A stretch of 64,000 nucleotides of DNA, taken from Lysobacteraceae bacterium (GTDB lineage Bacteria; Pseudomonadota; Gammaproteobacteria; Xanthomonadales; Rhodanobacteraceae). This document shows, in pieces, positions 19,506 through 63,727 of the stretch. The stretch is taken from positions 62,001 through 126,000 of the forward strand of contig SEHB01000002.1 in assembly GCA_004143945.1 (NCBI GenBank), written 5' to 3'. Every line of letters starts with the position of its first letter. Within the stretch, counting starts at the first letter, position 1. The notes beneath the pieces are model-generated. The model saw nothing but the letters and a program-made list of their open reading frames with translations. It had not been told where the DNA came from and ran no database searches. The position numbers were made by a program, and so were the translations under genes.

Positions 19506-20984
19506 CTACGGCTCGAATCCGTCCACGAAGATGCGGTCGTCGGGACCGGCGGCCGGATCGATGCCGGGCAGCGTGGTGGCGCCGGTGGAAGCCGGGTCGA
19601 GCCAGTCGCGCAGGCGCGTGGCCGCACTCGCACCCTGCCACGCGACCGAGAACTTGCCGTAGCAGTCGTACCCCGCATTCGGCACGCTGCCCGAGCACGC
19701 CGCGCTGCCACCGGACAGGGTGCCGAGGATCAGGTTCTGGTGGCCGCTCGCATCACCCGCGGGCACGAAGATCGCCGAGCCGGACGAGCCGCCTTCGGTG
19801 GTGCCCTGCGCGTACGGCGATCCCGTGCGCCAGTGGCTGCTGGTGCCGCCCGAGCCGATGCAACTGTTCATCGTGGTCAGGCCGTTGTCGTCTTCGGTGA
19901 TCGCCTTGACCCATCCGCTCGGATGGTGGATGCCGATGCTGCCTGCGGGCGTGATCCCACTCGCGTCCCAGCCCGCGTAGTAAACCTGGTAGGCGGTCGG
20001 CGGCAGGCTGTTGAGTTCGACCAGCGCGACATCGACGTCCGCGCGATGCGCACGCAGCGTCGCGCCACCCGATTGCGTCTGCGCGGTCGAACCGCCCCCG
20101 TGCTGGTCGCAGGTCGGCGACTGGTAGTTCCAGATCAGCGACATCGACGTCGCTTCCGATTGGGTGCTGATGCAGTGGTTGGCGGTCAGGAAGTAGGGCT
20201 TGAGGTCCTGCGCGGTGTTGTTGACGAGCGTCCCGGTGCACAGGTAGGTGCCGCCACTCTGGAAATAGAACTTCGCGACCGCGCGGATCTCGTCGCGATA
20301 GTCGTCGCCGAGCGCGCAGACCACGTCGATGTTGCAGGTGCCTGACGGACCCGCGCCGAACAGTTGCGTGCCGTCGGCCGCGTCGACGTTGCGATAACCC
20401 GTGCCGACCGTCGACAGCACCAGCGCATCATGCGCCAGCGTCGCGCCGGCGGGCACGTGCAGTTCGAGCGCAAGTTCGGAACCTGCGATCGGCGCCAGCC
20501 AGAGCTGGCCGTCCGGCGTGCGGTCGGCCGCGCCGTAGGCACCGTCGTAGCGATGGCGGCCTTCGTCGATCACGTGCAGCGTCGCGCCCGCGGGCAGCTC
20601 GAAGCGCGAAAACCCGAAGCGCAGGTCGGTCGCGTTCGGAGAATGCACCACGAGGCGCCAGAGCCGGCTGCCGTCGGCGAGCTCCGCCCATACGCCATCG
20701 CGCGTGCTCGAGGCCGTGACCGCCTGGCCGACCGCAACGCGCAGGCGCTTTTCGGCGGCGCCGTTGGCGGCGCGCTGCGCGTCCATCGCGCGCGCATCGG
20801 CCGCGAGCTCGCGCGCTGCATCGACCGCCGGCAGCTCCAGCACCGGCGCCGACGCGAGCTGCGGCGGCAGCGCATGCCCGAACGAATACGGAGGCTGCGT
20901 TTCGCGTGCGGGCAGCGGCGACATCGAGAGCAGCAGCATGGCCGCGGCGCATGGCCCGGCCCAGCGAAGGAAACGACGTGACAT
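19506..20984 (-). CDS. Secreted lysyl-endopeptidase-like serine protease with DRIFVDGFEP C-terminus
   Basis: 492 residues with a signal peptide ending near SPLPARE (about 26). After a propeptide-like region (30-210) comes a trypsin-fold domain like Achromobacter protease I: GTCNIDVVCALGDDYRDEIRAVAKF, His270 in FLTANHC, Asp318 in ADVDVALVEL, and Ser401 in TEGGSSGSAIF. Paired cysteines fit an extracellular enzyme. The extreme C-terminus is DDRIFVDGFEP, the motif shared with five other secreted proteins in the window. Cleavage specificity for lysine is likely by family but unproven. It lies between the GGDEF gene and ycgL. Confidence 0.9.
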   Translation of the reverse strand: MSRRFLRWAGPCAAAMLLLSMSPLPARETQPPYSFGHALPPQLASAPVLELPAVDAARELAADARAMDAQRAANGAAEKRLRVAVGQAVTASSTRDGVWAELADGSRLWRLVVHSPNATDLRFGFSRFELPAGATLHVIDEGRHRYDGAYGAADRTPDGQLWLAPIAGSELALELHVPAGATLAHDALVLSTVGTGYRNVDAADGTQLFGAGPSGTCNIDVVCALGDDYRDEIRAVAKFYFQSGGTYLCTGTLVNNTAQDLKPYFLTANHCISTQSEATSMSLIWNYQSPTCDQHGGGSTAQTQSGGATLRAHRADVDVALVELNSLPPTAYQVYYAGWDASGITPAGSIGIHHPSGWVKAITEDDNGLTTMNSCIGSGGTSSHWRTGSPYAQGTTEGGSSGSAIFVPAGDASGHQNLILGTLSGGSAACSGSVPNAGYDCYGKFSVAWQGASAATRLRDWLDPASTGATTLPGIDPAAGPDDRIFVDGFEP

Positions 20985-21061
20985 GGGAACCTCCTGCCTG
21001 CGCCGGACGGCGAACGCGGGAATGTATTCGTCCGCTCGCGACGCGGCATCCGGCACACGGA

Positions 21062-23641: not shown

Positions 23642-23925
23642 CGTTCGGCGGTCCCCTGCGTCGGTGCGGCCATCGGCGGCCATGCGTTGCGAACGGATCG
23701 CCCGCGCGGCGCGCCTCCTGTGGCGCCGCTCGCGGGTCGCAGCACAAGCTTAGCCGTTGCGGCGCGCGATGACGAAACGGGCGATGAACGCCGGCATCGG
23801 CGCGCGGCGTGCATGGCGTCACGCGACGGCCCTCGATGACGTCGGCCGAACTCACGAGGCGCGCGCGGGGCTGGCCCGCTAGGATGCACGTTCGCGCGAA
23901 CGCAAAGGACCGGGGTGCAGCACGC

Positions 23926-24459
23926 ATGGCCATCGACGATGCAGGCTCGGCAGGCGATCCGTCCCGACTCGAGGCACTGCACCCCCGGTTGTACGAACAC
24001 CTGCGCGAACTCGCTCGCCGCGCGCTCGCCGGCGAGCGCGCCGCGCAGACGCTCGGCACCACGGCCCTCGTGCACGAGGCGTGGCTCGGATTGGGCTCGA
24101 CCGACGCGGGATTCGAGAGCCGCGCGCACTTCCTCGGCTACGCGGCGACCGCGATGCGCCACATCCTGGTCGACCATGCGCGGCGCAAGTCTGCGATCAA
24201 GCGCGGCAGCGGCGCGGTTCCGCTCGACCTCGATGCGATCGACATCCCGGTGGAACAGGCGGCGACCGAGATGCTCGCGCTCGACGCGGCCCTCGATCGC
24301 CTGCAGGCGCTGGAGCCGCGTGCCGCGCGCGTCGTCGAGCTGCGCTTCTTCGCCGGTCTCTCGATAGAGGAAACCGCCGACGCGCTCGGCGTGGTGCCAC
24401 GCACCGTCGTGCGCGACTGGACGCTCGCGCGCGCGTTCCTGCATGCCGAGCTCGGATGA
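23926..24459 (+). CDS. ECF-type RNA polymerase sigma factor
   Basis: 177 residues. Region 2 is seen as LHPRLYEHLRELARRALAGE and LVHEAWLGL with AMRHILVDHARRKSAIKRG, and region 4 as LEPRAARVVELRFFAGLSIEETADALGVVPRTVVRDWTLARAFL. The sequence fits the ECF group that is commonly encoded next to serine/threonine kinases in Xanthomonadales and Planctomycetes. No anti-sigma factor is present. Its stop overlaps the kinase ATG (ATGA), so the kinase is probably its direct regulator. The regulon is unknown; the adjacent secreted beta-helix gene is a candidate target. Confidence 0.93.
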   Translation: MAIDDAGSAGDPSRLEALHPRLYEHLRELARRALAGERAAQTLGTTALVHEAWLGLGSTDAGFESRAHFLGYAATAMRHILVDHARRKSAIKRGSGAVPLDLDAIDIPVEQAATEMLALDAALDRLQALEPRAARVVELRFFAGLSIEETADALGVVPRTVVRDWTLARAFLHAELG

Positions 24460-27341
24460 TGACGCACGCGATCGAACGTCGATGGGCCGAGCTCGTTCCG
24501 TTGTTCGAACGTGCCGGTGCGCTGCCGCCGGAGCAGCTCGACGCATTCCTGGATGGCCTGGACGACGCGGAGCTGCGTGACGCGCTGCGTGCACTGCTGT
24601 CGGGCACCACGCGCACCGGCGCGCTCGACCGCGACAGCGGCGCGTACGCGGCGCGACTCATCGATGCGGGCGGCGGCCTCGAGGGCAGCCTGCTCGGCCC
24701 GTGGCGCGTCGGCGCCCTGATCGGAAGCGGCGGCATGGCGAGCGTGTTCGCGGCCACGCGCGCGGATGGCGCGTTCGAGCAGCAGGTCGCGATCAAGGTG
24801 CTGCGGCACGGCCTGCACGACGCGTGGGAGCGCGAGCGCTTCCTGCGCGAGCGCACGCTGCTCGCGCGCCTCGAGCACCCGGGTATCGCACGCGTGCTCG
24901 ATGGCGGGCTGACCGCTCGCGGCGTGCCGTGGTTCGCGCTCGAGTTCGTCGATGGCGAGCCGGTCACGCGCCATTGCGACCGCCTGCGACTCGGTGTCGA
25001 CGCGCGCCTGCGCCTGTTCGAAGGCCTGTGCGCGGCGGTCGACCACGCGCACCACAACCTCGTCGTGCATCGCGACATCAAGCCTTCGAACGTGCTCGTC
25101 ACGCGCGAGGGCAGCTACAAGCTGCTCGATTTCGGCATCGCCAAGCTCATCGACGAGGCGGGCCGCGACGACGACACGCGCACCGGCCTGCGTCGCCTCA
25201 CGCCGGCCTACGCGGCGCCCGAGCAGTCGCAAGGCGGCGACGTGACCACGGCGACCGACGTGTACGCGCTCGGGGTTCTGCTGCACGAGTTGCTCGCGGG
25301 TACGCGGCCGCTGCGGCGCGCCGACGGCACGCTGCAACCGATGTCGGGCGCGATCGCCGGCACGCCTGCGGACGCCGCCGCGGCGGCGCGCTCGAGCAGC
25401 GCGCGCGGGCTGCGCTCGCGCCTCGCCGGCGAGCTCGACCTGATCGTCGCGAAGGCGCTCGCGCACGGCCCCGCGCAGCGCTACCCCGATGCGGCGGCGC
25501 TCGCAGATGACCTCGTGCGCCACCGCGAGGGGCGACCCGTACGCGCGCGGCCGGATGCGCGCGGCTATCGCCTGCGCAAGTTCATTGGCCGCCATCGTCG
25601 CGGCATCGCGGTCGCCGCGATGTTGCTCGCCTCGCTGCTGGGCGGGCTCGCGGCGACCCTGTGGCAGGCCGGCGATGCACGCCGGCAAGCCGCGCGCGCG
25701 GACGCCGCGCGCGGGTTCGTGCTGTCGCTGTTCGAGGGCGTGACGCCCGACGAGGCGCGTGGTCGCACGGTGTCGGCACGCGAGCTGCTCGACCGCGGTG
25801 CCCAGCGACTCGCCGCGAGCTTGAGCGACGAGCCGCGACTGCACGCCGAACTCGCGGCGCAGCTCGCGGCGGCGTATCGCCAACTCGGCGACTACGCGCG
25901 CGCGGCCGAGCTCGCCGGCCAGGCGCGCGAGGCCGCGGACGCGCCGGCCGAACGCGCGCGCGCGCTGCTCGAACTCGGCCGCGCGCATGCGGCGCAGGGC
26001 CGGCCCGATGCCGCCACGCGCGACCTGCGCGACGCGCTCGCGTCGGCGCCGCCGCAACTCGCGTTCGAGATCCGCCTGCGCCTCGCCGAACTCGCGGCCG
26101 ACAGCGGCGACGCGGACGCACTCGCGCTCGCCCGCACGACCCTCGATGACGCGCGCGCGGCCGGTGATGCGGCGCAGGTCGCCGACGCGCTCGCGGTGCT
26201 CGGCGGCATCCATTTCCGCCTGAGCGAACTCGACGCCGCGGCCGCCGCGCTGCGCGAGGCGCTCGAACTGCAGCGCGCCGCGCGCGGCGAGGCGCACACC
26301 CGCGTCGCACAGGCCGGCCACGATCTCGGCGTCGTGGTGTTGCAGCAGGGCGATGCGAAAGCCGCGGCGACCTTGTTCGAACGCGCGCTCGCGCTGCGCC
26401 GCGAATTGCTCGGCGACGAGCATCCCGATGTCGCCGACAGCCAGTTCAACCTCGGCATCGCATTGCGCCGGCTCGGCGAGGACGCGCGCGCGGATCGCCT
26501 GGTCCAGCAGGCGGTCGCGATGCAGCGCCGCCTGCTCGGCGATGCACACCCGCTGGTCGCGAGCGGGCTCAACTCGCAGGCGTTGCATGCGTTCCAGCGG
26601 GGCGATACCGCCGGCGCGATCGCGCGCCTCGGCGAGGCGCTCGAGGTCGCGCGCCGCGCCTACGGCGACACGCATGCGACCGTGGTGACGATGCGCAACA
26701 ACCGCGCGGCGATGCTGCGCGCGTCGGGCCGCCTCGACGAGGCGCTGGTCGAGGCGCGCGAAGCCGCGCGTGCGGCGGGCGCCGGGCTCGGCGAGGCACA
26801 CCACCTGACCGGCGTGGCGCGCCTCGGCCTCGGCGCGGTGCTGGCCGAACGCGGCGAACGCGACGCGGCACTCGAGCAGTTCACGCTCGCGCATCGCGTG
26901 CTCGTCGCCGCGCTCGGCGCCGGTCACCAGGACAGCGTCGTCGCTCAAGCGGCGCTCGCGGACGGATTGCACGCGAGCGCTCGCATCGGGGAAGCCGCGG
27001 CGCAGGCCGAGGCGGCGCTGGCAGCGGGCGTCGTCGCTTTCCCGGCCGGCCACCCGCGCGTCGGCAAGTTGCGCCTGGTCGCCGCACGGATCGCGACCGC
27101 GCGCGGCGACTGCGACGCGGGCCGCTTCGCCACCGCCGCGACCGAACTCGCGCGCGGCGGAAACGCGCTGCGCGCGGACCTCGCGTGGGCCCGACTCGGC
27201 GAGGCCGCCTGCCTCGAAGCGGCGGGTCGCGCGGACGATGCGCGTGCGCGGCGCGCCGATGCGCGCGACCTGATAGCGGGACTGCCGTACGTGCCGCCTG
27301 CGCTGGCTCGGGCGGCCGGGGATCGCGAGGCGGGTCCTTGA
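24456..27341 (+). CDS. Ser/Thr protein kinase with transmembrane segment and TPR sensor region
   Basis: 961 residues. The Hanks-type kinase domain (about 85-350) has a glycine loop IGSGGMASVF, VAIKVL lysine, HRDIKPSNVLV catalytic loop, DFGIAKL and an APE-like AAPEQSQGG, so it should be active. A hydrophobic span RRGIAVAAMLLASLLGGLAA lies near 383-402. The C-terminal 550 residues are tetratricopeptide-type helices (YARAAELAGQAREAAD, DLGVVVLQQGDAKAAATLFERALALRR and others) expected outside the membrane. It is translationally coupled to the ECF sigma factor. Such pairs control transcription by phosphorylating the sigma factor; the input signal is unknown. Confidence 0.93.
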   Translation: MMTHAIERRWAELVPLFERAGALPPEQLDAFLDGLDDAELRDALRALLSGTTRTGALDRDSGAYAARLIDAGGGLEGSLLGPWRVGALIGSGGMASVFAATRADGAFEQQVAIKVLRHGLHDAWERERFLRERTLLARLEHPGIARVLDGGLTARGVPWFALEFVDGEPVTRHCDRLRLGVDARLRLFEGLCAAVDHAHHNLVVHRDIKPSNVLVTREGSYKLLDFGIAKLIDEAGRDDDTRTGLRRLTPAYAAPEQSQGGDVTTATDVYALGVLLHELLAGTRPLRRADGTLQPMSGAIAGTPADAAAAARSSSARGLRSRLAGELDLIVAKALAHGPAQRYPDAAALADDLVRHREGRPVRARPDARGYRLRKFIGRHRRGIAVAAMLLASLLGGLAATLWQAGDARRQAARADAARGFVLSLFEGVTPDEARGRTVSARELLDRGAQRLAASLSDEPRLHAELAAQLAAAYRQLGDYARAAELAGQAREAADAPAERARALLELGRAHAAQGRPDAATRDLRDALASAPPQLAFEIRLRLAELAADSGDADALALARTTLDDARAAGDAAQVADALAVLGGIHFRLSELDAAAAALREALELQRAARGEAHTRVAQAGHDLGVVVLQQGDAKAAATLFERALALRRELLGDEHPDVADSQFNLGIALRRLGEDARADRLVQQAVAMQRRLLGDAHPLVASGLNSQALHAFQRGDTAGAIARLGEALEVARRAYGDTHATVVTMRNNRAAMLRASGRLDEALVEAREAARAAGAGLGEAHHLTGVARLGLGAVLAERGERDAALEQFTLAHRVLVAALGAGHQDSVVAQAALADGLHASARIGEAAAQAEAALAAGVVAFPAGHPRVGKLRLVAARIATARGDCDAGRFATAATELARGGNALRADLAWARLGEAACLEAAGRADDARARRADARDLIAGLPYVPPALARAAGDREAGP

Positions 27342-27412: not shown

Positions 27413-29461
27413 ATGACATTGCGAACCCGGTTTCTGCTCGGCTGCGCACTCGGCCTGCCCATGGTCGCCGACGCGGCGACCCGCACCTGGCCCGGCGATC
27501 CGGGCTGCAGCGGCACGCTGCAGGCGTGTGTCGACGCGGCCGCCGACGGCGACCGAATCGAGATCGCGACCGACGTGCCGATCACCGAGTCGATCGCGCT
27601 GCACGCGCGCAGCCTCACCCTGACCGCGGCGGACGGCTACAAGCCGCAGTTCCTCGGCGTCGGCATCATCGCGAACGACTCGGGCGGTGGCGGCGCCGAC
27701 ATCGACGTGCGGCTGAGCCGCCTGCGCTTCACCAACGGCTACGTGACCGCCACCTACGCGAGCCCGGGCCACGCGAACTTCGAGTTCCGCGAGCTGGTGC
27801 TGACACGCGCGCCCGGCGCGACTGGAGCCGGCATCACCGTGATCGCGTACGAAGGCACGGTCGAGGCGATGCTCTACGACAACCGCGTCAGTGGCCTGCC
27901 ACTCGGCATCAACGGCGCGCTCGTCGAGCTCGCGGCGCAGGGTGGCACGCTCGATGCGCGTGCGTACTACAACCACGTGTCGAGCACGGGCCCAGGCACG
28001 GTCGAAGGGGCGGGCCTGTTCGTCAACGTCGCGCAGGGTGGCGGCGGCAGCGTGAAGCTGCACGCGAACCAGGTCCGCGGCAGCTTCATGCGTTCCGGGA
28101 TCTTCATCTCCGAGGGGCTGTTCTCCCCGACGCCGAGCAGCTTCGATGCGCGCGTCTACAGCAACGTGGTGATCGGCACCGGCGGCGGTCGCGGCATCGA
28201 CGTGACGCCGTCGAACGGCAGCATCGACGTGCAACTCGTCAACAACACCGTGACGCGCGTGCAGAGCGCGATGTCGTTCACGAACTGGGATGGCGGCGCG
28301 AGCCCGGTCGTCGACGCGCTGGTCAGGAACAACCTGCTCAAGGCGCCGACCGCGATGTTCGTGAATCCCTCGCTCGTGGCCGGCGTCGACGACGACTACA
28401 ACCTGCTCGACGGCGCGACGGTCAACTTCACGCCGGGGCCGAACTCGCTGGCCGGGCCTGCCGGGCTCGTCAGCGACCAGCAGCCGCGGCCCGCGCCGGG
28501 CTCGCCCGCGATCGATGCAGCCGATACCGCGACGCTCGGACTCGGGATCATCTTCAACGCGCTGCCCTCGACCGACGCGGACGGCCTGCGCCGGATCAAG
28601 CGCGTCAGTGCGAGCGCCGCCGACATCGGTGCGTTCGAGGCGGGCGACGTGATGGTGCTGCACGCGGCCACGCCCGACACGATCGGCGCGCACATCAGCC
28701 GCATCGACCACCCCGCGCTCAACGGGCGGCCTGCCGCGGACCTGTTCGCGACGCCGAACTTCGACGGCGACGGCAGCAACCCGAACGTGACCCACCCGCA
28801 TCCCTACGGGAGCTGGTACGACGGCACGCGATGGACGCTGTTCAACGAAGACCTCGCGCCCATGCCGGCCTACGTCGACTTCAACGTGTTCGTTCCGGCG
28901 ACCGGGAGCGGCGTCTTCCGCCACGCCGCGAACGCGGCCAACACGTCGGGCTGGGCCACCCAGCTCGACCATGCGAGCGTCAACGACCTCCCGGACCGCA
29001 TCGTGCTGGCGACGCAGAACTTCAGCGCAGGACCCGCCTACAACGCGCACCCGATCGGCGTGTTCTATTTTTCCCTCGGTGGTCCGGGCTCATGGCTGAT
29101 CGCCAACCTCGACCTCCTGCCCGCCGTCGACATGACCGAAGGCGCCGGCTTCAGCGTGTACGCGCAGGAGCCGAGCCCGAACGCGTTCCGCGTGACCGCG
29201 AGCCCCGGCAATCTCGACGGGGCGGCCCTGCGGCTGGACCACCCACTGCTCGACGGCATGCCGTGCGCGCGCCCCGTAGCCACGCGCATGTTCGACGGCA
29301 GTGCAGTGACCACGCACTTCGACCTCGACTATGCCGAGGGCCACTGGCACGTGTTCGGCTTCTCGCCGATTCCGGCGGGAACGCAGTTCAACGTGCTCGT
29401 CGATCCCGCACAGGTCGCGGCCTGCAGCGACATGATCTTCGCGGACGGCTTCGGCGACTGA
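27413..29461 (+). CDS. Secreted parallel beta-helix protein (choice-of-anchor Q-like) with IFADGF C-terminus
   Basis: 682 residues. The signal peptide MTLRTRFLLGCALGLPMVADA is followed by an N-terminal right-handed beta-helix region with repeated short strands (GDRIEIATDVPIT, LRFTNGYVTATYASPG, YSNVVIGTGGGRGIDVTPSN). Around residue 365 comes PGSPAIDAADTA and later SASAADIGAFE, the pattern of choice-of-anchor Q proteins. A C-terminal region with two similar halves of about 110 residues (each with HP-LNG/LDG-x-P and a V-x-ATxxFDG stretch) follows, and the end is CSDMIFADGFGD. No catalytic residues are recognised. It lies 71 bp downstream of the kinase gene and could be part of that regulon. Confidence 0.8.
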   Translation: MTLRTRFLLGCALGLPMVADAATRTWPGDPGCSGTLQACVDAAADGDRIEIATDVPITESIALHARSLTLTAADGYKPQFLGVGIIANDSGGGGADIDVRLSRLRFTNGYVTATYASPGHANFEFRELVLTRAPGATGAGITVIAYEGTVEAMLYDNRVSGLPLGINGALVELAAQGGTLDARAYYNHVSSTGPGTVEGAGLFVNVAQGGGGSVKLHANQVRGSFMRSGIFISEGLFSPTPSSFDARVYSNVVIGTGGGRGIDVTPSNGSIDVQLVNNTVTRVQSAMSFTNWDGGASPVVDALVRNNLLKAPTAMFVNPSLVAGVDDDYNLLDGATVNFTPGPNSLAGPAGLVSDQQPRPAPGSPAIDAADTATLGLGIIFNALPSTDADGLRRIKRVSASAADIGAFEAGDVMVLHAATPDTIGAHISRIDHPALNGRPAADLFATPNFDGDGSNPNVTHPHPYGSWYDGTRWTLFNEDLAPMPAYVDFNVFVPATGSGVFRHAANAANTSGWATQLDHASVNDLPDRIVLATQNFSAGPAYNAHPIGVFYFSLGGPGSWLIANLDLLPAVDMTEGAGFSVYAQEPSPNAFRVTASPGNLDGAALRLDHPLLDGMPCARPVATRMFDGSAVTTHFDLDYAEGHWHVFGFSPIPAGTQFNVLVDPAQVAACSDMIFADGFGD

Positions 29462-30143: not shown

Positions 30144-30146
30144 GGC

Positions 30147-34352: not shown

Positions 34353-34663
34353 CGCGCCCACCCGATCGCCGGCCGCACGCGCGCACGTGCCGCACCCGCG
34401 CCGGGTGCGGCATCGCGAGAGGCCACCCGTCGACTCCGAATCCCTCGCGAGCCATGCGGGGCGCGGCGCTTTTTGCTGTCGCGCCACCCATGCGCCGCCG
34501 TATGCGTGATGCGCCCCGCGTCGGGACCATGGGATGGGTTGTATTCCGCCCGTGGGCGTAGTACACCTCAGGCTTCCGTCAGTCACGATCCGGCAGGCCA
34601 GGTGCCTGCAGGGTCTCTGCGCGGATGCGAAAACCTTCGGTTCCACCTGGGGAGTCAACACAG
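34353..34663. other. Intergenic region upstream of the BNR/GEVED protein gene
   Basis: 311 bp without a gene. It holds a perfect hairpin at 34388-34412 and an otherwise unremarkable leader. GGGGAG at 34650-34655 is the ribosome-binding site for 34664. No clear promoter pair could be fixed. Confidence 0.5.
34388..34412. terminator. Hairpin without T-tract downstream of the 34005 gene
   Basis: An 11-bp perfect stem (TGCCGCACCCG / CGGGTGCGGCA) with a 3-nt loop, 36 bp after the stop at 34352. It lacks a T-tract, so it may be a processing or pausing structure rather than a true intrinsic terminator. Confidence 0.4.
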
Positions 34664-37600
34664 ATGAAGTTGCGCAAGACATACGCCGCGCTCGCGTGCG
34701 GCATCCTGCTCGCGCTCGGCGCGGGCCAGAGCATCGCCGCGGGCGCCGCGGATCCCAAGCAGGAAGACCCTGCCGTCATCGTGCAGTCGCGCGGTGTCGA
34801 TCCTTCGGTCGACTATGCGAGCCTGGTCCGCTTCGGACCCTGGGACGACCGCAATTACGCGCTCACTGCAGCCGACCTCGCGCTGCTGCCGGAGAACGAT
34901 CGACCGGTGCGCGGCGTGCCGGCGTTCTACAAGGTGCAGAAGCGCAAGGAAATGGCCGCGGAAGGCAATCCGATCGAGAAATACTATCCGCGCGAGACCG
35001 ACAAGGAATTCGTGCACCGCTACGGCGGGCTGATCCAGAACGGCAAGCTGATCCGCCGTGGCCTCGGCGTCTACACGCATCCCGATGCCGAGAACCCGCC
35101 GCCGAACCTGATCTACGCGACCGATCCGCTGCCGCACGCGGTGCCGATCGAGGGCGAAGGCCCGATGGCGATCGGCAACAACGAGACCGGCATCGAGTAC
35201 AACCCGGTCGATCCGGACATCGTGATCGCCGGCTCCAACGGCCCCGGCGGCCAGAGCATGAATTACTCCAATGACGGCGGCGTGACGTGGTTCTCCGCCG
35301 GCACCTTGCCGAGCAGCTGCTGCGACCCGGCGTCCGACTGGTCGTCGGACGGCACCGTCGCCTATACCGCGACGCTCGGCGGCAGCGGCAGCTTCCGCAA
35401 CGTCGTGTACCGCTCGACGAACTTCGGCCAGAGCTGGGGCTCGCCGGTCACGGTGTCGGCGGGCAGCTCCGACAAGGAATACATCCACGTCGACCAGTCC
35501 GCCTCGTCGCCATACCAGGATTACGTCTACACGACCTGGCACCAGGGCAACGTGATGTACTTCGCGCGCTCGACCGACCGCGCGCTGACGTTCCAGACGC
35601 CGATCGCGTTCTCCTCCGCTGCGCGCGGCATCGGCAGCGACATCACGACCGACAGCGCGGGACGCATCTACTATGCGTGGCCGAGCACGAGCAACCATCC
35701 GACTTCGGCCGTCTGGGTCGTCACGTCCAATGACGGTGGTGCGACGTTCTCCGCGCCGGTGCAGGCGTATGACCTGCATGGCGAATTCGACTTCGCGATC
35801 CCGTCGATGGAATCGCGTCGCGCGTTCATCTACGTCTCGGCCGACGTCGACCGTTCCGGCGGCACGCACGACGGCCGCGTCTACCTCGCGTTCACCGACG
35901 AAGCGCCGAACAGCCCGGGCAACGGCAACGGCTCCGCGGCCAACTCGCACGGCTGGGTGCAGGTGGTCTATTCCGACGACCAGGGCGCCACCTGGCAGGT
36001 CGCGGCGACGCCGCATTCGACTGCCGACCAGGCCACCGTCGACCGCTACCACCCGTGGCTCGACGTGGATGACAACGGCGTCGTGCATATCGGCTTCTAC
36101 GACACGCGCAATTCGACCAACCGTACCGGCGTCGACTTCTACTACGTCTACTCGGCCGATGGCGGCGCGACCTGGACCAACGAGACGCGCGTCTCGGCGA
36201 TCGTCTCGCAGAACATCACGAACGGCCAGGAGTGGGGTGACTACAACGGCCTGTCCGTCTCGCGCGCGAACACCGTCGCGATGAGCTGGACCGACAACCG
36301 CATCCCGTCGGGCGGCAGCTCGCCGCAGCAGAAGTCGTTCGTCGGCCGCGTGACCAATGTCGCCGGTGGTCCGAACTACCAGCTCGGCGTCACCGCTGCG
36401 GGCCTGTCGGTCTGCGCCGGCCAGCCGGTGCCGCCGGTTCCGTTCACCGCGCGTGCGTTCGGCGGCTTCTCCGATCCCGTGATGCTGAGCTTCCCGGGCA
36501 TCAACGCGACCGTGTTCCCGACCTCGACGGCGACGCCGAACCCGATCACCCCGGCCGACCCGGCCGCGGCCGGCACGATCAACCTGAGCACGTCGCCGTC
36601 CGCGACGCCGGGCACCTATTCGGTCACGCTGTTCGGCACCAACGGCGGTGGCAGCGCGGTCGAGCGTTCGGCCGAGTTCGACGTCACGGTCGCGAGCGGC
36701 ATTCCGGCCGCGGCGACGCTGACCGCACCGGCGAACGGCGCGACCGGCGTGCCGACGCTCCCGGCATTCTCCTGGAGCGGCAACGCGGCTGCAGTGACCT
36801 ACACGATCCAGGTCGCGACCGACGCGGGCTTCACCAACATCGTCGCCACCGATACCGTCGAGGAGACGAGTTGGACGCCGACGGCGGTGCTGGTCCCGAT
36901 GACGCAGTACCACTGGCGCGTGCGTGCGAACAGCCCGTGCGGCGACAGCGGCTGGTCGTCGACGTTCTCGTTCACGACCGGCGTGACGTTCCCCGAGCCG
37001 TACTGCGACTGGGACGTGACCCAGGACATCGAGCCGATCACGCGCGTGACCTACGCGGGCATCAACAACGCGTCCAGCGCGGCCGTGAATGGCTCGCCTG
37101 CGCTGGAGGACTTCACGGCGATCGTGGGCAACGTCACTGCGGGTTCGAGTGCGTCGATGGCGGTGCAGGGCAACACGGCGGGCAACTTCACGACCGTGGT
37201 CACGACCTTCATCGACTGGAACCGTGATGGCGACCTCACCGACGCCAACGAGTCGTATCCGATCGGCAACATCGTCAACTCGACCGGCAACGACGGCCAG
37301 CAGGCGGTCAACACGATCGCGGTCCCGGCCGGCGTGACCGACGGCCCGGTGCGCATGCGCGTGACCAAGAAGTACAACGCCGCCGCGACGCCGTGCAACA
37401 CCGACGGGTACGGCCAGGCCGAGGACTACACGTTGATGGTCGGCGCCGGCGGCACGACCTACACGGTCGGCGGCAGCGTCACCGGCCTCACCGGCAACGG
37501 CCTCGCCCTGAGCCTCAACGGCAGCGAAAACCTGCCGCTGGTCGCCGACGGCGTGTTCACGTTCTCGACCGCGCTCAACACCGGCGCCAGCTACGCGGTG

Positions 37601-38296
37601 ACGATCGCGAGCCAGCCCGCGGGCCAGACTTGCTCGGTCGCCAACGGCAGCGGCACCATCGCGGGCGCCAACGTGACCAATGTCGCGGTCACCTGCATCA
37701 CGACGGTCGGCGACGTGATCTTCGCGGACGGCTTCGATGGCGAGGTGGTCACGGTGTGCGAACCGCTGCAGCTGTTCCAGGACACGAGCTTCGAAGCGAC
37801 CTCGGTCAGCGGAGGGTCCAACACGTTCTGGGACTCGGGTTCGACCACCGGCGACAGCGTGTTCTGGAACTCGGGTGAAGTGCGCACCGGCACGTACGCG
37901 GTCTGGATGGGCGGCTACGGCGGTGGCGCACCGGAGACGATGCACGCCGAGCAGTCGGTCGTGTTCACGGGCGCGACCCGCCACCTGAACTTCTGGCGCA
38001 TGAACGCGCGCCAGGGCGGCGGCGTGAGCGAGGTCAAGTTCATCGTCGACGGCACCACCGTGCACACCGACTCGACCATCGCGCTGCCGGCCGAACTCGA
38101 TTGGGTCAGCCAGTCGGTGGACCTCAGCGCGTACGCGGACGGCCAGTCGCATACGGTGCGCATCCAGTACGACCACAACGGTACCGGCCAGGATGCGAAC
38201 TACTTCCTCGACGATGCGACGCTCGACTGCGAGGCGGCTCCGGCCGGCCTTCGCAGCGCGGCGCGCGGGGCGGGCGCGGTGCAGAAGCAGCACTGA
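34664..38296 (+). CDS. Large secreted BNR-repeat / GEVED-domain protein with internal IFADGF motif
   Basis: 1210 residues with a signal peptide ending near GQSIAAG. Residues about 175-560 hold sialidase-like BNR/Asp-box repeats (NYSNDGGVTWF, RSTNFGQSWGS, TSNDGGATFS, YSDDQGATWQ, YSADGGATWT), suggesting a beta-propeller. A fibronectin-like stretch (GIPAAATLTAPANGATGVPT) at about 680-770 is followed by a GEVED-type domain (FIDWNRDGDLTDANE and GYGQAEDYTLMV). The motif GDVIFADGFDG occurs near residue 1020, but about 185 further residues follow, forming a jelly-roll-like domain (DTSFEATSVSGGSNTFWDSG and YFLDDATLDC). No sialidase catalytic set is visible. It is monocistronic, with GGGGAG 9 nt before the ATG. 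Confidence 0.85.
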   Translation: MKLRKTYAALACGILLALGAGQSIAAGAADPKQEDPAVIVQSRGVDPSVDYASLVRFGPWDDRNYALTAADLALLPENDRPVRGVPAFYKVQKRKEMAAEGNPIEKYYPRETDKEFVHRYGGLIQNGKLIRRGLGVYTHPDAENPPPNLIYATDPLPHAVPIEGEGPMAIGNNETGIEYNPVDPDIVIAGSNGPGGQSMNYSNDGGVTWFSAGTLPSSCCDPASDWSSDGTVAYTATLGGSGSFRNVVYRSTNFGQSWGSPVTVSAGSSDKEYIHVDQSASSPYQDYVYTTWHQGNVMYFARSTDRALTFQTPIAFSSAARGIGSDITTDSAGRIYYAWPSTSNHPTSAVWVVTSNDGGATFSAPVQAYDLHGEFDFAIPSMESRRAFIYVSADVDRSGGTHDGRVYLAFTDEAPNSPGNGNGSAANSHGWVQVVYSDDQGATWQVAATPHSTADQATVDRYHPWLDVDDNGVVHIGFYDTRNSTNRTGVDFYYVYSADGGATWTNETRVSAIVSQNITNGQEWGDYNGLSVSRANTVAMSWTDNRIPSGGSSPQQKSFVGRVTNVAGGPNYQLGVTAAGLSVCAGQPVPPVPFTARAFGGFSDPVMLSFPGINATVFPTSTATPNPITPADPAAAGTINLSTSPSATPGTYSVTLFGTNGGGSAVERSAEFDVTVASGIPAAATLTAPANGATGVPTLPAFSWSGNAAAVTYTIQVATDAGFTNIVATDTVEETSWTPTAVLVPMTQYHWRVRANSPCGDSGWSSTFSFTTGVTFPEPYCDWDVTQDIEPITRVTYAGINNASSAAVNGSPALEDFTAIVGNVTAGSSASMAVQGNTAGNFTTVVTTFIDWNRDGDLTDANESYPIGNIVNSTGNDGQQAVNTIAVPAGVTDGPVRMRVTKKYNAAATPCNTDGYGQAEDYTLMVGAGGTTYTVGGSVTGLTGNGLALSLNGSENLPLVADGVFTFSTALNTGASYAVTIASQPAGQTCSVANGSGTIAGANVTNVAVTCITTVGDVIFADGFDGEVVTVCEPLQLFQDTSFEATSVSGGSNTFWDSGSTTGDSVFWNSGEVRTGTYAVWMGGYGGGAPETMHAEQSVVFTGATRHLNFWRMNARQGGGVSEVKFIVDGTTVHTDSTIALPAELDWVSQSVDLSAYADGQSHTVRIQYDHNGTGQDANYFLDDATLDCEAAPAGLRSAARGAGAVQKQH

Positions 38297-41339: not shown

Positions 41340-42452
41340 TCAGAGCCCAGGCAACTCGAAGCCGTCGGCGAAGATCAGGTCGCCGAGGGCAACTGTCGTC
41401 GTGATCGTCGCCGTCGCCTGCACCAGCGGATCGCCCAGGGACGTCGCGGTCACCGTCATCACATCGCTGTCGCCGAGTTCCGCACTGATCGGCGCCCCGT
41501 GCCCCACGTCGAACGTGGCGCTGCCGCCCGCGGGCACGACGATCATCGTCACCGAGGGGGTTGCCGACCAGCTGCTGCTGGTCGGAACGGCCGTGATGTC
41601 GTAGGTGTCGTCGGTCAGGCCCGTGTTCTCGATCGTGACCGGATAGATCAAGACCATCCCAGGTGAGGTGGTGCCTGCTGCCGGCGCGTCCAGCGTCACG
41701 GCGAAGTCGACGGCTTGCGTAACCGATATGTCGTCGTAATACACCGGCGACGCACCATTCGCGAAGAGGTCGATCGCGCCGATCTCGAGCGTGCCTGCGC
41801 CCGAGACTTCCTCGGTCCAGGTACCCGAATACAGCAACTGGTCGTCGTAGTAGAACGACTGGGTGTCGGCGTCGAGATCGATCTCCACGCGGATCGGAAC
41901 CCACGCGTCGGTGACGAACGGCAAGCTGCCACCGGACGCGCCGCCGTCGTTGATGAGATTTCCGGTCGCGCTGTCGAACTGCACCTGCACCGACCAGTTG
42001 AGGTTGGTGCCGGCGTCGTTGTAGACGTTCTGGATGATGAAGTACGACTGCCCCGTGAAGCCGGTCGGGATGTACTGCATCGCACGGACCACCCAGGCTC
42101 CGCTGGCCTGGTCGAATTCGTGGACCACGTCGCTGGTGGCCGTCACGTTGAGCGAGTTGGACGGGCTCGAACTGAACGCGTCATCGACGAATGCGCCCGC
42201 ATTCGGATCGTTGGCCCAGCCCTTCCAGCCGTTCTGGCCGTGCACGTTGCTGCCGACCGTGTAGCTGTCGAAGTTTTCGAAGAAGTCGCTTCCGCGTGGT
42301 TGCTCGCCACGTAGCGCAGGCAGGCTCCGCGAGATGCCGTCCCCGTCGTGGTGGCCGGTCGGGCGTGCCTTTGCGTGCGGGATGCAGAGGCCGGCGCTCG
42401 CGACCAGGGCTGCGACGAGCAGGCCATGAACCAGGGTGTGCTGCGATGCCAT
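41340..42452 (-). CDS. Secreted concanavalin-like protein with IFADGFE C-terminus
   Basis: 370 residues. A signal peptide (MASQHTLVHGLLVAALVASAGLC) is followed by a jelly-roll or lectin-like domain (FFENFDSYTVGSNVHGQNGWKGW, WVPIRVEIDLDADTQSFYYDDQLLYSG, YYDDISVTQAV) of about 190 residues, then a beta-sandwich domain of the alpha-galactosidase-associated type (MVLIYPVTIENTGLTDDTYDI). The C-terminus is ALGDLIFADGFELPGL. No catalytic residues are apparent, so it may bind a ligand or act structurally. It lies between gshA and engB as a single gene. Confidence 0.85.
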   Translation of the reverse strand: MASQHTLVHGLLVAALVASAGLCIPHAKARPTGHHDGDGISRSLPALRGEQPRGSDFFENFDSYTVGSNVHGQNGWKGWANDPNAGAFVDDAFSSSPSNSLNVTATSDVVHEFDQASGAWVVRAMQYIPTGFTGQSYFIIQNVYNDAGTNLNWSVQVQFDSATGNLINDGGASGGSLPFVTDAWVPIRVEIDLDADTQSFYYDDQLLYSGTWTEEVSGAGTLEIGAIDLFANGASPVYYDDISVTQAVDFAVTLDAPAAGTTSPGMVLIYPVTIENTGLTDDTYDITAVPTSSSWSATPSVTMIVVPAGGSATFDVGHGAPISAELGDSDVMTVTATSLGDPLVQATATITTTVALGDLIFADGFELPGL

Positions 42453-55345: not shown

Positions 55346-55671
55346 GGTTGGCAGTCCTCGAATCCATTGCGGAACAGGCGGTCGCCGGCGACGGGCATCG
55401 CGAGGAAGCCCGCATCGAGCGCGTAGCCGCCCCCGGTGGCGCGACCGGCGACCGGCTCGGCGACGGTTGCGTCGAGCAGGAAGCACGGACTGGCCGCGCG
55501 CGTGACGCCACCGCCCGCGATGACGTGCTGGGATACGAGCACGGGTTGGCCTCGCCGAGGCGCATTCGTGTCGGCCGTGCTCGTCGCGGCCGAGGCCACG
55601 CCGAGCAGCAGCAGCGCAGAAGCGATCGCGCGATGGCGCGAGACGCTCGCGCGCGTTCGGATGTCAGGCAT
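55342..55671 (-). CDS. Small secreted protein with RLFRNGFE C-terminus
   Basis: 109 residues starting [21 protein letters not shown] signal peptide-like segment ([19 protein letters not shown]) is followed by a short region containing [43 protein letters not shown], the repeated pattern seen at the end of many xanthomonad secreted proteins, and the C-terminus [15 protein letters not shown], the window-wide motif with an Asn in place of the usual Asp. Two cysteines, one in the tail, may pair. Its stop overlaps the start of the collagen-like gene (ATGA), so the two are translationally coupled and probably work together. Confidence 0.8.
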
Positions 55672-57002: not shown

Positions 57003-57056
57003 GGGCACGGATCACACCATTGCGTGCGCGCGTGCGCAAGCCATGCGGTTGCGCAT

Positions 57057-58051: not shown

Positions 58052-58070
58052 CTCCGCAACATCCCATCCA

Positions 58071-58095
58071 CGGCGGTTCCATCCCGGAACCGCCG
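58071..58095 (+). other. Perfect hairpin in the BON-csbD intercistronic gap
   Basis: A 10-bp stem (CGGCGGTTCC / GGAACCGCCG) with a 5-nt ATCCC loop, directly before the csbD ribosome-binding site. It has no T-tract and could control translation or mRNA processing. Confidence 0.6.
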
Positions 58096-58110
58096 CAGCA
58101 GGAGCAGACC

Positions 58111-58308: not shown

Positions 58309-58320
58309 GCAAGCGACGTG

Positions 58321-58343
58321 GCGCGGCGGCACAGCCGCCGCGC
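58321..58343 (+). terminator. Perfect GC hairpin downstream of csbD
   Basis: A 10-bp stem (GCGCGGCGGC / GCCGCCGCGC) with an ACA loop, 12 nt after the csbD stop. No T-tract follows, so partial termination or 3'-end protection is more likely than strong termination. Confidence 0.45.
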
Positions 58344-58404
58344 TGGCCAGGGCGGGGGCACGCGGTCATCGCGTGTCCCCGCCGACGTTCACCACACGGA
58401 TGGA

Positions 58405-60353: not shown

Positions 60354-60447
60354 GCCTGCGTCGATCCTCCGCACGGCGATGCGCCGCGCGAGGAATTGTG
60401 CGCGAAGCCCTGCGTGTTGGCGACCACCCGCCCGGGCGGCCCCGGTG

Positions 60448-61866
60448 TCAGATCGCGTAGTACATCTGGAACTCGAGCGGATGCGTGGCCGCGCGGAAAC
60501 GCGTGACCTCGGCCATCTTCACCTCGATGTAGGCGTCGATGAAGTCGTCGGAGAACACGCCGCCGGCCTTGAGGAATGCACGATCCTTGTCGAGTGCTTC
60601 GAGCGCCTGGTCGAGCGAGTGGCACACGGTCGGGATGTTCTTTTCCTCTTCCGGGGGCAGGTCGTAGAGGTCCTTGTCCGCCGGCGCGCCTGGGTCGATC
60701 TTGTTCAGGATGCCGTCGAGGCCCGCCATCATCAGCGCGGTGAACGTGAGGTAGCCCGACTGCATCGGATCCGGGAAGCGCACTTCGATGCGGCGAGCCT
60801 TGGGGCTGTGCACGAACGGGATGCGGCAACTGGCGGAGCGGTTGCGCGCCGAATACGCGAGCATCACGGGCGCCTCGAAGTGCGGCACCAGGCGCTTGTA
60901 GCTGTTGGTGGTCGCGTTCGCGAAGGCATTGATCGCGCGTGCATGCTTGAAGATGCCGCCGATGTAGTAGAGCGCGGTCTGCGACAGGCCACCGTAGAGT
61001 TCGCCGGAGAACAGGTTCTGGCCGCCCTTCGCGAGCGACTGGTGCACGTGCATGCCGGAACCGTTGTCGCCGACCAGCGGCTTGGGCATGAAGGTCACGG
61101 TCTTGCCGTGCAGGTGCGCGACGTTGCGCACGACATACTTCATGTTCATGAGCTCGTCGGCCTTGCGCACGAGCGTGTTGAAGCGCGTGCCGATCTCGCA
61201 CTGGCCCGCGGTCGCGACCTCGTGGTGATGCACTTCGACCGTCATGCCGACGGCTTCGAGCACCTTGCACATCTCGCTGCGCAGGTCCTGGAACGAATCC
61301 ACGGGCGGCACCGGGAAATAGCCGCCCTTGATCCCGGGGCGGAAGCCCGCGTTGCCGGCTTCGAAGCGCTTGTTGCTCGACCACGCGGCCTCTTCCGATT
61401 CGATCTCGCAGGACACGCGACCCATTTCGTTCTGGTAGCGCACCGAGTCGAAGATGAAGAATTCCGGTTCCGGGCCGAAGAACGCGGTGTCGGCGAGGCC
61501 CGTCGACTTCAGGAACGCCTCGCCACGCTTCGCGATCGAACGCGGATCGCGCGAGTACGCCTGCATCGTGCTCGGCTCGAGCACGTCGCACTGCAGGACC
61601 AGCGTGCGGTGGCTCATGAACGGGTCCACGAACGCGGTGGCCGGGTCGGGCATCAGCACCATGTCCGATTCGTTGATGCCCTTCCAGCCGGTGATCGAGG
61701 ACCCGTCGAACATGCGGCCGTCCTCGAACAGCGATTCGTCGATCGAATGCGCGGGGTAGCTCACGTGGTGCTGCACGCCGAGCATGTCGGCGAAACGCAG
61801 GTCGACGAACTCGACCTCATGCTCCTTGATCAGGGCGAGGACATCGGCGGGACGGGTGGCGGACAT
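60448..61866 (-). CDS. glnA: Glutamine synthetase type I
   Basis: 472 residues, matching GSI-beta (E. coli 469). Seen: [30 protein letters not shown], the N-terminal [17 protein letters not shown] motif, the ammonia/metal site [29 protein letters not shown], and the conserved adenylylation site DLYDLPPEE near residue 400, so the enzyme should be controlled by GlnE. It makes glutamine from glutamate and ammonia. A GAGG lies 5 nt before the ATG. The upstream region holds a sigma-54 promoter and two NtrC-like sites, indicating nitrogen control. Confidence 0.98.
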
Positions 61867-61901
61867 GGCGACCTCGAGGCGGTAAGGGACGCGAAGGCTC
61901 G

Positions 61902-61918
61902 AGCAACCCGCGTGCCAA
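61902..61918 (-). promoter_or_regulatory. Sigma-54 promoter of glnA
   Basis: TTGGCACGCGGGTTGCT on the minus strand matches the consensus TGGCAC-N5-TTGCA/T almost perfectly, with GG and GC at -24 and -12. The predicted transcript starts about 25 nt before the glnA ATG. Confidence 0.85.
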
Positions 61919-61977
61919 CCCGTCCCGCCCGAGCGGGCGCGCCCGGGCGCGGCGGGAGGCCGGGCGGACGCGGCGCT

Positions 61978-61994
61978 CGCACCATGATGAGGCA
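61978..61994. promoter_or_regulatory. Putative NtrC-binding site, proximal and weaker
   Basis: CGCACCATGATGAGGCA shares the GCACCA-TGATG core with the distal site. Centre-to-centre distance is 23 bp, about two helical turns. It is centred about 95 bp upstream of the predicted glnA start. Confidence 0.55.
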
Positions 61995-62000
61995 CTTGCG

Positions 62001-62017
62001 TGCACCATGATGGCGCA
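62001..62017. promoter_or_regulatory. Putative NtrC-binding site, distal and strong
   Basis: TGCACCATGATGGCGCA is a 17-bp dyad with one mismatch to the NtrC consensus TGCACC-N5-GGTGCA. It is centred about 118 bp upstream of the predicted glnA transcription start, a normal enhancer distance. Confidence 0.7.
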
Positions 62018-62151
62018 TGCAGGTCGTGCGCACTCGCGAGTCTCGTGCAGGGGCTTCAACCCCGAGCCCGCGGCCCCGATCCTCGCGCAGGCAAGCGTTC
62101 GCGGGAACGGGCGAATCCCGACCCACCGGCGGCTCCGCCACCCTGCGCCCG

Positions 62152-62157
62152 TACAAT
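62152..62157 (+). promoter_or_regulatory. Candidate -10 box of uppP
   Basis: TACAAT, 42 nt before the GTG start of uppP. No clear -35. Confidence 0.4.
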
Positions 62158-62199
62158 GCGCGGTCTCCGGCGCAGCCACGCGCCCCCGGAAAACACCAC

Positions 62200-62982
62200 G
62201 TGGACGACCTGATCAGCACGATCCTGCTCGGCATCATCGAAGGCATCACCGAGTTCCTGCCGATCTCGAGCACGGGCCACCTGCTGATCGCCGAGCGCTG
62301 GCTCGGTCGCCGCTCGGACCTGTTCAACATCGTGATCCAGGCCGGCGCGATCCTTGCGGTCGTGCTGATCTACCGCGAACGCCTCTGGCGCCTCGCCACC
62401 GGTCTGCGCGAACGCACGCAGCGCGACTACGCGCTCAAGCTCGCGTACGCGTTCCTCGTCACCTGCGTGCTGGGGCTCGTCGCGGTCCAGTTCGGCTTCG
62501 AACTGCCCGAATCGACCACGCCGATCGCGTGGGCGCTCGTGATCGGCGGCTTCTGGATGCTCGGCGCGGAATGGCTCGCAGCGCGGCGACCCGAGCACAC
62601 CACGATCAGCTGGAACGCGGCGCTGCTGGTCGGCATCGCGCAGGCCGTCGCGGGCGTGTTCCCGGGCACCTCGCGCTCGGCTGCGACGATCTTCATCGCG
62701 ATGCTCGCGGGCACCGGCAACCGCGCCGCTGCGACCGAGTTCGCGTTCCTCGTCGGCATCCCGACGATGTTCGCCGCGAGCGCGTACGAACTCGCGAAGA
62801 CCGCGCGCAGCGGCGCCGCGCACGAGGACTGGGGCGCGCTCGGGATCGGCTTCGTCGTGTCGGCGGTCACCGCGTTCGTCGCGGTCAGGTGGCTGCTCGG
62901 CTACATCCGCACGCACCGCTTCACGCCATTCGCGATCTACCGCATCGTGTTCGGACTGATCCTGCTCGGGCTTCCGGACTAG
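62200..62982 (+). CDS. uppP: Undecaprenyl-diphosphatase UppP (BacA family)
   Basis: 260 residues from a GTG start; no ATG lies nearby in frame. The enzyme recycles undecaprenyl diphosphate for cell wall synthesis at the membrane. Motifs: GIIEGITEFLPISSTGH with the glutamate pair and catalytic Ser/His region at 11-27, and VFPGTSRSAATI (the PGxSRSxxT motif) near 151-162. Seven to eight hydrophobic segments are spread through the protein. It is divergent from glnA across a 333-bp gap that holds the glnA control region and a TACAAT promoter element. Confidence 0.96.
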   Translation: MDDLISTILLGIIEGITEFLPISSTGHLLIAERWLGRRSDLFNIVIQAGAILAVVLIYRERLWRLATGLRERTQRDYALKLAYAFLVTCVLGLVAVQFGFELPESTTPIAWALVIGGFWMLGAEWLAARRPEHTTISWNAALLVGIAQAVAGVFPGTSRSAATIFIAMLAGTGNRAAATEFAFLVGIPTMFAASAYELAKTARSGAAHEDWGALGIGFVVSAVTAFVAVRWLLGYIRTHRFTPFAIYRIVFGLILLGLPD

Positions 62983-63076
62983 GGAGCCGGTCGCCGCGAT
63001 GGGGCATGGCAGGATCGGGCACGGTCTTCCGTGTCCGGATGCGTGCGCCGATCACGGCGCGAGATCCGGAGCCCCC

Positions 63077-63727
63077 ATGCACGCTGCACGTTCGATCCAG
63101 ATTGTTTCCGCATTCGCCGCGCTGGCCTTGGCGCGGCCGGCCGGCGCCGTCGAGTTCTTCGGTCCGACGCCGTACCTGTCGGCGGCCGACACGCCCGCGG
63201 GATTCCCGTCCGGCGTGATGGATGTCGAGGACTGCGAGGACGGCGTGCTGGATCCGCGGCTGATCGTGTTGACCGCGACGATCTTGCCCCCGGGCGGGAT
63301 CACCGACTCGGTCGACGCCGACGACGGCGCGATCGACGGCTCCGGCACGGCCGGCTACTCGCTGTTCGGCTTCCCGCCATTCGAAGTCGAGTTCGTGCCC
63401 CCGCTGCCGACCGCGGCGGGCCTGGTCTGGACCGATGGAGGCACGCCGACCGACGTCACGTTCGAGGCGTTCGGTGCCGGCGGGCAATCGCTCGGCAGCA
63501 TCGGGCCGTTTCCGATCGGCGACAACAACAACGGCGGCGGCACCGACGAGGACCGCTTCTTCGGCGTGCGCGACGACGCAGGCATCCTGCGCCTGCGCGT
63601 CATGCACACGAGTGGCGGCATCGAGATCGACCACATCCAGTTCAATGCCGGCGATCGCATCTTCGATGACGGCTTCGAGGGTGCGCCAGAGGGCAGTCCT
63701 TCCGGCGATCGAAAGACGCGTCGCTGA
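63077..63727 (+). CDS. Secreted hypothetical protein with RIFDDGFE motif
   Basis: 216 residues. A signal peptide (MHAARSIQIVSAFAALALARPAGAVE) is followed by a beta-rich region: VEFFGPTPYLSAADTPAGFPSG, VMDVEDCEDGVLDP, VWTDGGTPTDVTFEAFGAGGQSLGS and GGTDEDRFFGVRDDAGILRLRVMHTSGGIEIDHIQF. Similar proteins with a G-x-EIDHIQ/V-x-F end are found in cyanobacteria and xanthomonads as putative surface or matrix proteins. The motif GDRIFDDGFE is followed by a 15-residue hydrophilic tail ending KTRR. CCGGAG lies 6 nt before the ATG. No enzymatic motif is seen. Confidence 0.8.
   Translation: MHAARSIQIVSAFAALALARPAGAVEFFGPTPYLSAADTPAGFPSGVMDVEDCEDGVLDPRLIVLTATILPPGGITDSVDADDGAIDGSGTAGYSLFGFPPFEVEFVPPLPTAAGLVWTDGGTPTDVTFEAFGAGGQSLGSIGPFPIGDNNNGGGTDEDRFFGVRDDAGILRLRVMHTSGGIEIDHIQFNAGDRIFDDGFEGAPEGSPSGDRKTRR

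Follow-up and report, generated by a model that had tools for sequence, protein, structure and literature searches.

A ten-residue, mostly C-terminal tag on exported proteins of Lysobacterales and its association with a second type of type II secretion system

The locus

A short peptide motif, D-x-[IL]-F-x-[DN]-G-F, recurs on otherwise unrelated proteins encoded in a 64-kb stretch of the genome of a Lysobacteraceae bacterium (the host; assembly GCA_004143945.1, contig SEHB01000002.1, positions 62,001 to 126,000; the whole stretch is hereafter the window). An earlier model reading of the bare DNA (the sequence-only reading) had pointed to six copies of this motif, and a six-frame scan found exactly those six, all in long open frames (Table 1), and nothing more in the remaining frames of the 64-kb window, whose GC content is 70%. 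The distances from the GF pair to the stop codon also bear out the claim that five of the six tags lie at or within 16 residues of the C-terminus. Pfam and NCBIfam scans of the six proteins found no family that covers their tails; the protein ending at 63727 has no match in either collection, and the one at 41340-42452, earlier described as lectin-like, has no Pfam match above cut-off.

Table 1. Motif copies in the window and the proteins that carry them
Gene	Motif	Position	Strand	Residues between GF and stop	Protein and placement
19506	DDRIFVDGFEP	19509..19541	-	2	Last 11 residues of a trypsin-like protease, stop at 19506; Pfam Trypsin 19.2 bits, slightly below the cut-off of 20.6
29461	SDMIFADGFGD	29426..29458	+	2	Last 11 residues of a choice-of-anchor Q / DUF7452 protein, 27413-29461
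37711	GDVIFADGFDG	37709..37741	+	186	Internal in protein 34625-38296, C-terminal to its BNR and GEVED part; 184 further residues follow the 11-mer
41340	GDLIFADGFEL	41352..41384	-	5	Followed by PGL and the stop; protein 41340-42452
55342		55354..55386	-	5	Followed by CQP and the stop; very small exported protein, start MPDIRTRAS
63727	GDRIFDDGFEG	63650..63682	+	16	Followed by 14 residues and the stop; exported protein within frame 62999-63727

The gene caller called four of the six genes, and a crude predictor accepted a signal peptide in three of these (29461, 37711 and 63727) but rejected the 41340 gene, whose N-terminal hydrophobic stretch lacks a preceding K/R. The 19506 and 55342 genes were uncalled, and by eye a signal peptide begins at an internal Met of each frame.

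A peptide repeated through the host genome

A profile of the six tails gave 113 matches at E<=10 in the 3.67 Mb host genome, the window's six being included by construction, which amounts to one tag per 32 kb. E-values of ten-residue profiles are weak, and relaxed thresholds were applied where stated. When the DNA around each match was fetched and read, 112 of the 113 fitted a 10-mer pattern that itself required [ILV]4, [FL]5, [DN]7, [GAD]8, [FL]9 and [EDG]10. Where this pattern left a choice, the residues nevertheless converged (D2 in 104, F5 in 111, G8 in 110, F9 in 110 and E or D at position 10 in 108 of the 112), giving the consensus [GSDA]-D-x-[ILV]-F-x-[DN]-G-F-[ED]. The tag ends the protein exactly in 23 cases and lies 1-6 residues from the stop in 58, 7-25 residues in 14 and 26-60 residues in 3; the remaining 14 are internal. 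Its description as a C-terminal tag thus suits the 81 of 112 copies within six residues of the stop but not the internal ones, two of which directly follow the signal peptide (L044 and L081, the latter on a DUF1800-like protein), the others lying further in. The same placement behind a signal peptide was seen by eye in other genomes (L171 and L150).

That so short a motif arises by chance, or from a DNA-level repeat read in frame, has some initial appeal in a window of 70% GC, yet the evidence leaves this explanation practically no room. The glycine at position 8 is encoded by GGC in 55, GGG in 20, GGT in 20 and GGA in 15 of the 112 tags; since synonymous codons vary, selection acts on the peptide, and a DNA repeat or mobile element is ruled out as its source. 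Chance is likewise ruled out by a class-wide control in which, among 321 genomes, only the host and one other matched at E<=0.05 (one of 320 others), in keeping with the lack of stray matches in the window's other frames.

The tagged proteins appear to be predominantly exported. The same crude predictor, built by us, found signal peptides in 71 of 79 called tagged genes as against 34 of 108 untagged neighbours; the 79 are drawn from the 113, the other 34 being cut or uncalled. By eye, an export signal (Sec, or Tat in one gene) is visible in seven of the eight tagged genes that it missed. Scans of all 113 C-terminal stretches (up to 430 residues each) confirmed that the ectodomains are otherwise unrelated. 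Among the 25 of 69 NCBIfam families listed, the commonest were choice-of-anchor Q (15), delta-60 repeats (9) and beta-helix repeats (6), with choice-of-anchor J and choice-of-anchor B at two each, and some proteins matched families whose names refer to dependence on rhombosortase, myxosortase, LPXTG or T9SS. The 25 of 70 Pfam families listed include beta-helix, FG-GAP, subtilase, Kelch, PQQ, DUF1501, DUF1800 and GH44, among others. When aligned, the 113 stretches show 6% mean column identity, which rules out that the tag is the end of one shared domain, and their consensus still ends in DxIFADGF. We regard it as solidly established that the tag is real, is selected as a peptide and is attached to exported proteins.

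Several gene arrangements were seen around tagged genes. At L064 and L073 a DUF1501-like protein is tagged at or within two residues of its C-terminus and the adjacent upstream gene (DUF1800-like by eye) is untagged, so that one of these partners may ride with the other; at L081 and L171 the DUF1800-like protein itself is tagged directly behind its signal peptide. Five host stretches around tagged genes (L037, L052, L076, L085 and L115) contain ECF sigma factors of the TIGR02999 type, noted as occurrences only, and a Ser/Thr kinase gene lies near tagged genes in the window (23883-27338). These sigma factors and the kinase may control tagged genes.

Comparison with known sorting tags

The IPTL-CTERM, PEP-CTERM, GlyGly-CTERM and MYXO-CTERM tags resemble the tag in that they are proteome-wide, mostly C-terminal and lineage-restricted and occur on many unrelated exported proteins. 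The tag differs from all four in lacking a hydrophobic helix and a general basic end, as the sequence-only reading had observed, and in that it can be internal or N-terminal. Of 95 C-terminal tails, 94 have no transmembrane helix (one has a 19-residue window >1.6 in its last 50 residues), which rules out a hydrophobic membrane anchor, and at least two K/R occur in the last eight residues of only 11. The same tails also uphold the claim that no named sorting system matches: among the 24 NCBIfam families matching them (60 residues, E<=1) there is no model of a sorting tag alone, nor is there a tag model among the Pfam families listed (25 of 31). The NCBIfam families named for an anchor that do match, rhom_dep_M36, myxo_dep_M36 and MXAN_5453_fam, are whole-protein or domain families, and weak matches were obtained to GlyGly_RbtA (0.017) and CoaP_CTERM (0.11). 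The tag's motif strings gave no match in the open-licence literature in PMC. C-terminal domains of the type IX secretion system (T9SS) are soluble signals carried by many cargo proteins of one secretion system, and in this they are like the tag; they are, however, folded domains, as against ten residues, and none was among the 24 NCBIfam families.

Distribution and a clade-wide variant

Across the order, 73 of 150 genomes match the tag profile at E<=0.1. The tag is present over most families of the order and, within the class, is almost confined to it. The earlier description of the tag as lineage-specific needs qualifying in that its range takes in much of one order, while in family f2 only one of 24 sampled genomes (G091) is tagged (f and g denote family and genus codes of the search tool, f1 being the host's family). 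A search of GTDB genomes with an exact DNA pattern, which covers one common form of the tag, returned 77 stretches, mostly from Dokdonella and unnamed Lysobacterales, but also from Tahibacter, Pseudofulvimonas, one Wenzhouxiangella, a few Acidobacteriota and one Opitutaceae. These contain 93 motif frames, of which 68 are at most six residues from the stop, 15 at most 25, nine further in and one cut. The Acidobacteriota copies are of a longer C-terminal form, e.g. IFADGFETGDTSAW, often reading IF.DGFESG[DN].S.W (L126, L137, L148, L149, L168, L207, L209-L211, L214-L216, L218, L221, L223 and L224).

In genus g23 of family f10, apparently Wenzhouxiangella, the tag instead reads [ILV]F.DRF[EQ]. A DRF profile built from three observed variants found 9 to 30 copies in each of seven g23 genomes at E<=0.5, compared with one (G031) and none (G002) in DGF-type controls; among four tag-free genomes it found none in G053, G107 and G119 and two weak matches in G020. 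Order-wide at E<=0.3, it matched 14 of 15 g23 genomes, G139 of genus g62 and, weakly, three f9 genomes. Each g23 genome has at most one DGF tag (E<=0.1), and two of them, G058 and G144, have only two weak DRF matches each. In 19 of the 27 g23 loci read, the variant lies within 16 residues of the stop (DRF-variant loci in g23: L232, L246, L254, L257-L263, L266-L272 and L274-L286). Because the shift from DGF to DRF (G8 to R8) is clade-wide, it suggests co-evolution with a reader.

The variant also bears on the possibility that the tag is a structural cap or remnant that nothing reads (the first strand of a jelly-roll domain, for instance). The longer Acidobacteriota form (such as IFADGFETGDTSAW), which we take to resemble the opening strand of beta-sandwich domains, lends this idea some appeal. 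It is nonetheless very improbable: the tag follows beta-helices, propellers, proteases and other folds, and a conserved Phe and Asp on unrelated folds, shifted clade-wide from G8 to R8, call for a common partner. In one predicted structure, of a tagged choice-of-anchor Q protein, the tail (residues 362-380) scores below 50 in a model with a mean pLDDT of 55.8, which gives a flexible tail weak support, since residues 296-348 are low too.

Association with a second type II secretion system

GspD of type II secretion systems (T2SSs) was found at E<=1e-20 in 149 of the 150 order genomes (143 above cut-off), and the systems fall into two types. The Xps type is present in the f1 operons fetched, tagged or not; a second type is arranged gspC-gspD-gspE-gspF (hereafter type 2). 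In the host, whose other locus is Xps-like, this locus lies at G000:C3, 76000-95000 (L287), where the families were confirmed, the type-2 GspC scoring 99.8 bits against a cut-off of 101.6. No pseudopilin gene was recognised by eye at L287; the pseudopilin genes of this system may be located elsewhere or shared with the Xps set. By eye, the gsp genes adjoin genes resembling ftsE, ftsX and rpoH, and a divergent tagged gene lies beside them.

The sequence-only reading had proposed that co-occurrence of the tag with type II secretion be examined, and for one T2SS type the outcome was strongly positive. Family f1 splits by GspD, the tagged genomes having an extra, higher-scoring copy, and by the type-2 GspC, which is present in 4/4 tagged and 0/20 tag-free genomes. 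Over the 150 order genomes the E-values of the type-2 GspC profile are bimodal, and the threshold of 1e-20 was chosen after this was seen. With both tag types counted, 77 of 84 type-2 carriers are tagged as against 5 of 66 non-carriers (Fisher p ~1e-27, uncorrected for kinship). This count takes G118 as a carrier on its full-length type-2 GspE and becomes 76/83 and 6/67 without that move, which is open to doubt because the GspE proteins of the untagged f2 genomes G131 and G061 are equally similar (57-58% identity). Conversely, 76 of the 82 tagged order genomes have the type-2 GspC; by genus, 30 of 33 with the type-2 T2SS are tagged versus 2 of 31 without. Genomes recruited only by the tag DNA (Lysobacterales or those named only Pseudomonadota/Proteobacteria, from 21 of the 77 loci, with L119 left out) have the type-2 GspC in 19 of 20 cases, two of them partial, and in 16 of 17 once three duplicates of the order sample are excluded. 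Single genomes follow the same pattern: G091, the lone tagged genome of f2, is also the f2 genome with a strong type-2 GspC, and G019 (f9), which lacks both the tag and the type-2 GspC, gave no GspD match at E<=1e-20.

Several observations weigh against reading this association as a functional link. Kinship inflates the test, and by our judgement the tag and the system changed together independently only three or four times (f1, G091 of f2, G019 of f9 and, in part, f8). The type-2 GspC is absent from all four Acidobacteriota genomes with the longer tag form, from one Opitutaceae genome with a single tag match and from the recruited Tahibacter genome G488. Neither it nor a full-length type-2 GspE was found in the f8 genomes G097 and G063, which are genuinely tagged (G097 has three tags at the exact C-terminus; G063 has one that follows a signal peptide and two close to the C-terminus), or in G048 (10 tags, 90% complete) and G059 (9 tags, 77% complete). 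In the other direction, seven type-2 carriers have no detected tag, one of them having the variant IFVSGFE, and f2 includes untagged genomes whose related second T2SS lacks the type-2 GspC, e.g. G131 (GspD 39% and GspE 56% identical), which gave no GspC match. Tagged genes are no commoner around gsp loci than at background density (three of ten type-2 loci versus none of ten others). An alignment of 50 sequences yielded no GspC residue match to the DGF/DRF switch distinguishable from clade history, and residue-level co-variation of GspC with DGF or DRF was dropped on that ground. Finally, co-occurrence alone is no proof that the tag is read, because a T2SS that is lost would take its substrates with it.

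Such exceptions in both directions, the tagged Acidobacteriota among them, would fit a different reader, such as a protease, a modifying enzyme or a separate export route, linked to the type-2 T2SS by shared ancestry only, and the co-occurrence tests covered chosen families rather than whole gene contents. We consider this unlikely in view of the complete concordance in f1 (4/4 and 20/20) and the behaviour of G091 and G019. Moreover, a C-terminal proteolytic or transpeptidase signal is weakened as a candidate because tags also occur internally and directly behind signal peptides, which argues against cleavage at the C-terminus.

The anchor position of choice-of-anchor Q proteins

Like the tag, IPTL-CTERM is found on the choice-of-anchor Q domain, in some tag-free relatives. 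Thirty choice-of-anchor Q loci from 30 genomes were read, and the tag or a close variant ends 18 of the 20 readable C-termini. In G107 nothing lies C-terminal of the domain. In G076 (L256) an IPTL-CTERM-like segment (20.6 bits, cut-off 20.5) directly follows the domain; it lies ~130 residues before the stop, hence mid-protein and not as a C-terminal anchor, an arrangement that resembles the midcut-by-XrtH family (weak match). Nine further readable C-termini came from genomes without the type-2 GspC or with no or few detected tags: four have helix-plus-basic ends (IPTL-CTERM or similar; L410, L413, L416 and L418), four have no recognisable anchor and one has the tag variant IFVSGFE. Two of the four helix-plus-basic ends, in G053 (of the host's family) and G018, exceed the IPTL-CTERM cut-off. 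The tag thus occupies the position where some tag-free relatives carry an IPTL-CTERM anchor.

This position favours a rival view in which the tag does not recruit proteins to the T2SS but retains T2SS-exported proteins on the outer surface through a receptor (an outer-membrane protein, lipopolysaccharide or a surface layer), doing the job of the IPTL-, GlyGly- or MYXO-CTERM anchors without a membrane helix. The matches of some tagged proteins to rhombosortase-, myxosortase- or LPXTG-named families point the same way. It is the main rival because, in the portion of PMC7691419 that concerns Wenzhouxiangella AB-CW3, protease activity is cell-bound with none in the medium, outer-membrane anchoring is supposed and the T2SS is given as a possible route. 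Against it, no receptor was found, and a receptor alone leaves the joint loss of the tag with one T2SS type unexplained, unless the proteins have no other exit. The tag matches of G058, apparently AB-CW3 itself, are also weak (two with the DRF profile A5 at E<=0.3; one with profile A2 at E<=1). Rhodanobacter is presumably among the tag-free genera. The NpdA surface layer was rejected as a discriminating receptor, given that part of PMC10765051 lists Rhodanobacter with NpdA too. Overall, we give surface retention without recruitment perhaps one chance in a few.

How the tag might be read

The suggestion that these tails form a lineage-specific tag for export or surface attachment is supported by the unrelated domains that bear them, the excess of signal peptides, the lack of a model among the families listed and the anchor position. 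Our preferred reading, held at slightly better than even, is that the tag is a linear address for substrates of the type-2 T2SS, serving their recruitment or their surface retention. The tag would be carried by Sec- or Tat-exported proteins, normally as a C-terminal tail but also as a linker or mature N-terminus, and in Lysobacterales would mark substrates of the gspC-gspD-gspE-gspF type of T2SS. The folded exported protein would display the tag in the periplasm, where part of the T2SS would bind it without covalent change; the most plausible candidates for that part are the domains of GspC or GspD that lie in the periplasm. The protein would then be handed on to the cell surface, with the tag perhaps contributing to its retention there as well. 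That the type-2 T2SS is the reader is our inference, and so are the subunit involved, the flexible tail and the protein's fate. A non-covalent reader is proposed because the position of the tag is flexible and the residue switch is clade-wide. The type-2 T2SS is the best candidate because its cargo consists of exported folded proteins and because GspC and GspD are described, in parts of the literature cited below, as touching a short cargo loop.

A parallel comes from known T2SS secretion determinants. In the relevant passages of PMC7949064, nine residues of PelI that form an exposed loop serve as a T2SS signal via GspC and GspD, and loop 3 of PelI/Pel3 (PMC7949064, PMC12369372, as excerpted) resembles the tag in being a short, flexible stretch exposed on a folded protein of the periplasm (PelI) with GspC and GspD as partners. 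Loop 3 and the PDZ-dependent Ig fold of VesB are, however, composite or domain-borne and protein-specific, whereas the tag is one linear motif on ~100 proteins. Within those portions of the 2021 and 2025 T2SS papers (PMC7949064, PMC12369372), a common linear signal is described as absent and recognition as probably structural. That the tag is instead a transferable linear T2SS signal, the first common sequence signal of that pathway, with the DGF-to-DRF switch recording co-evolution of a cargo set with its reader, is a bolder proposal that we advance tentatively and with rather more doubt than belief.

Implications

In one genome, a single linear motif is shared by about 100 proteins that have nothing else in common except that nearly all seem to be exported. 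How T2SSs choose their cargo is an open question, and a ten-residue motif that goes with one T2SS type and has a naturally occurring variant clade would open that choice to direct testing. If the tag instead serves surface retention, it would be a proteome-wide sorting signal that needs no membrane helix, and a portion of an environmental order's surface proteome could then be read from sequence.

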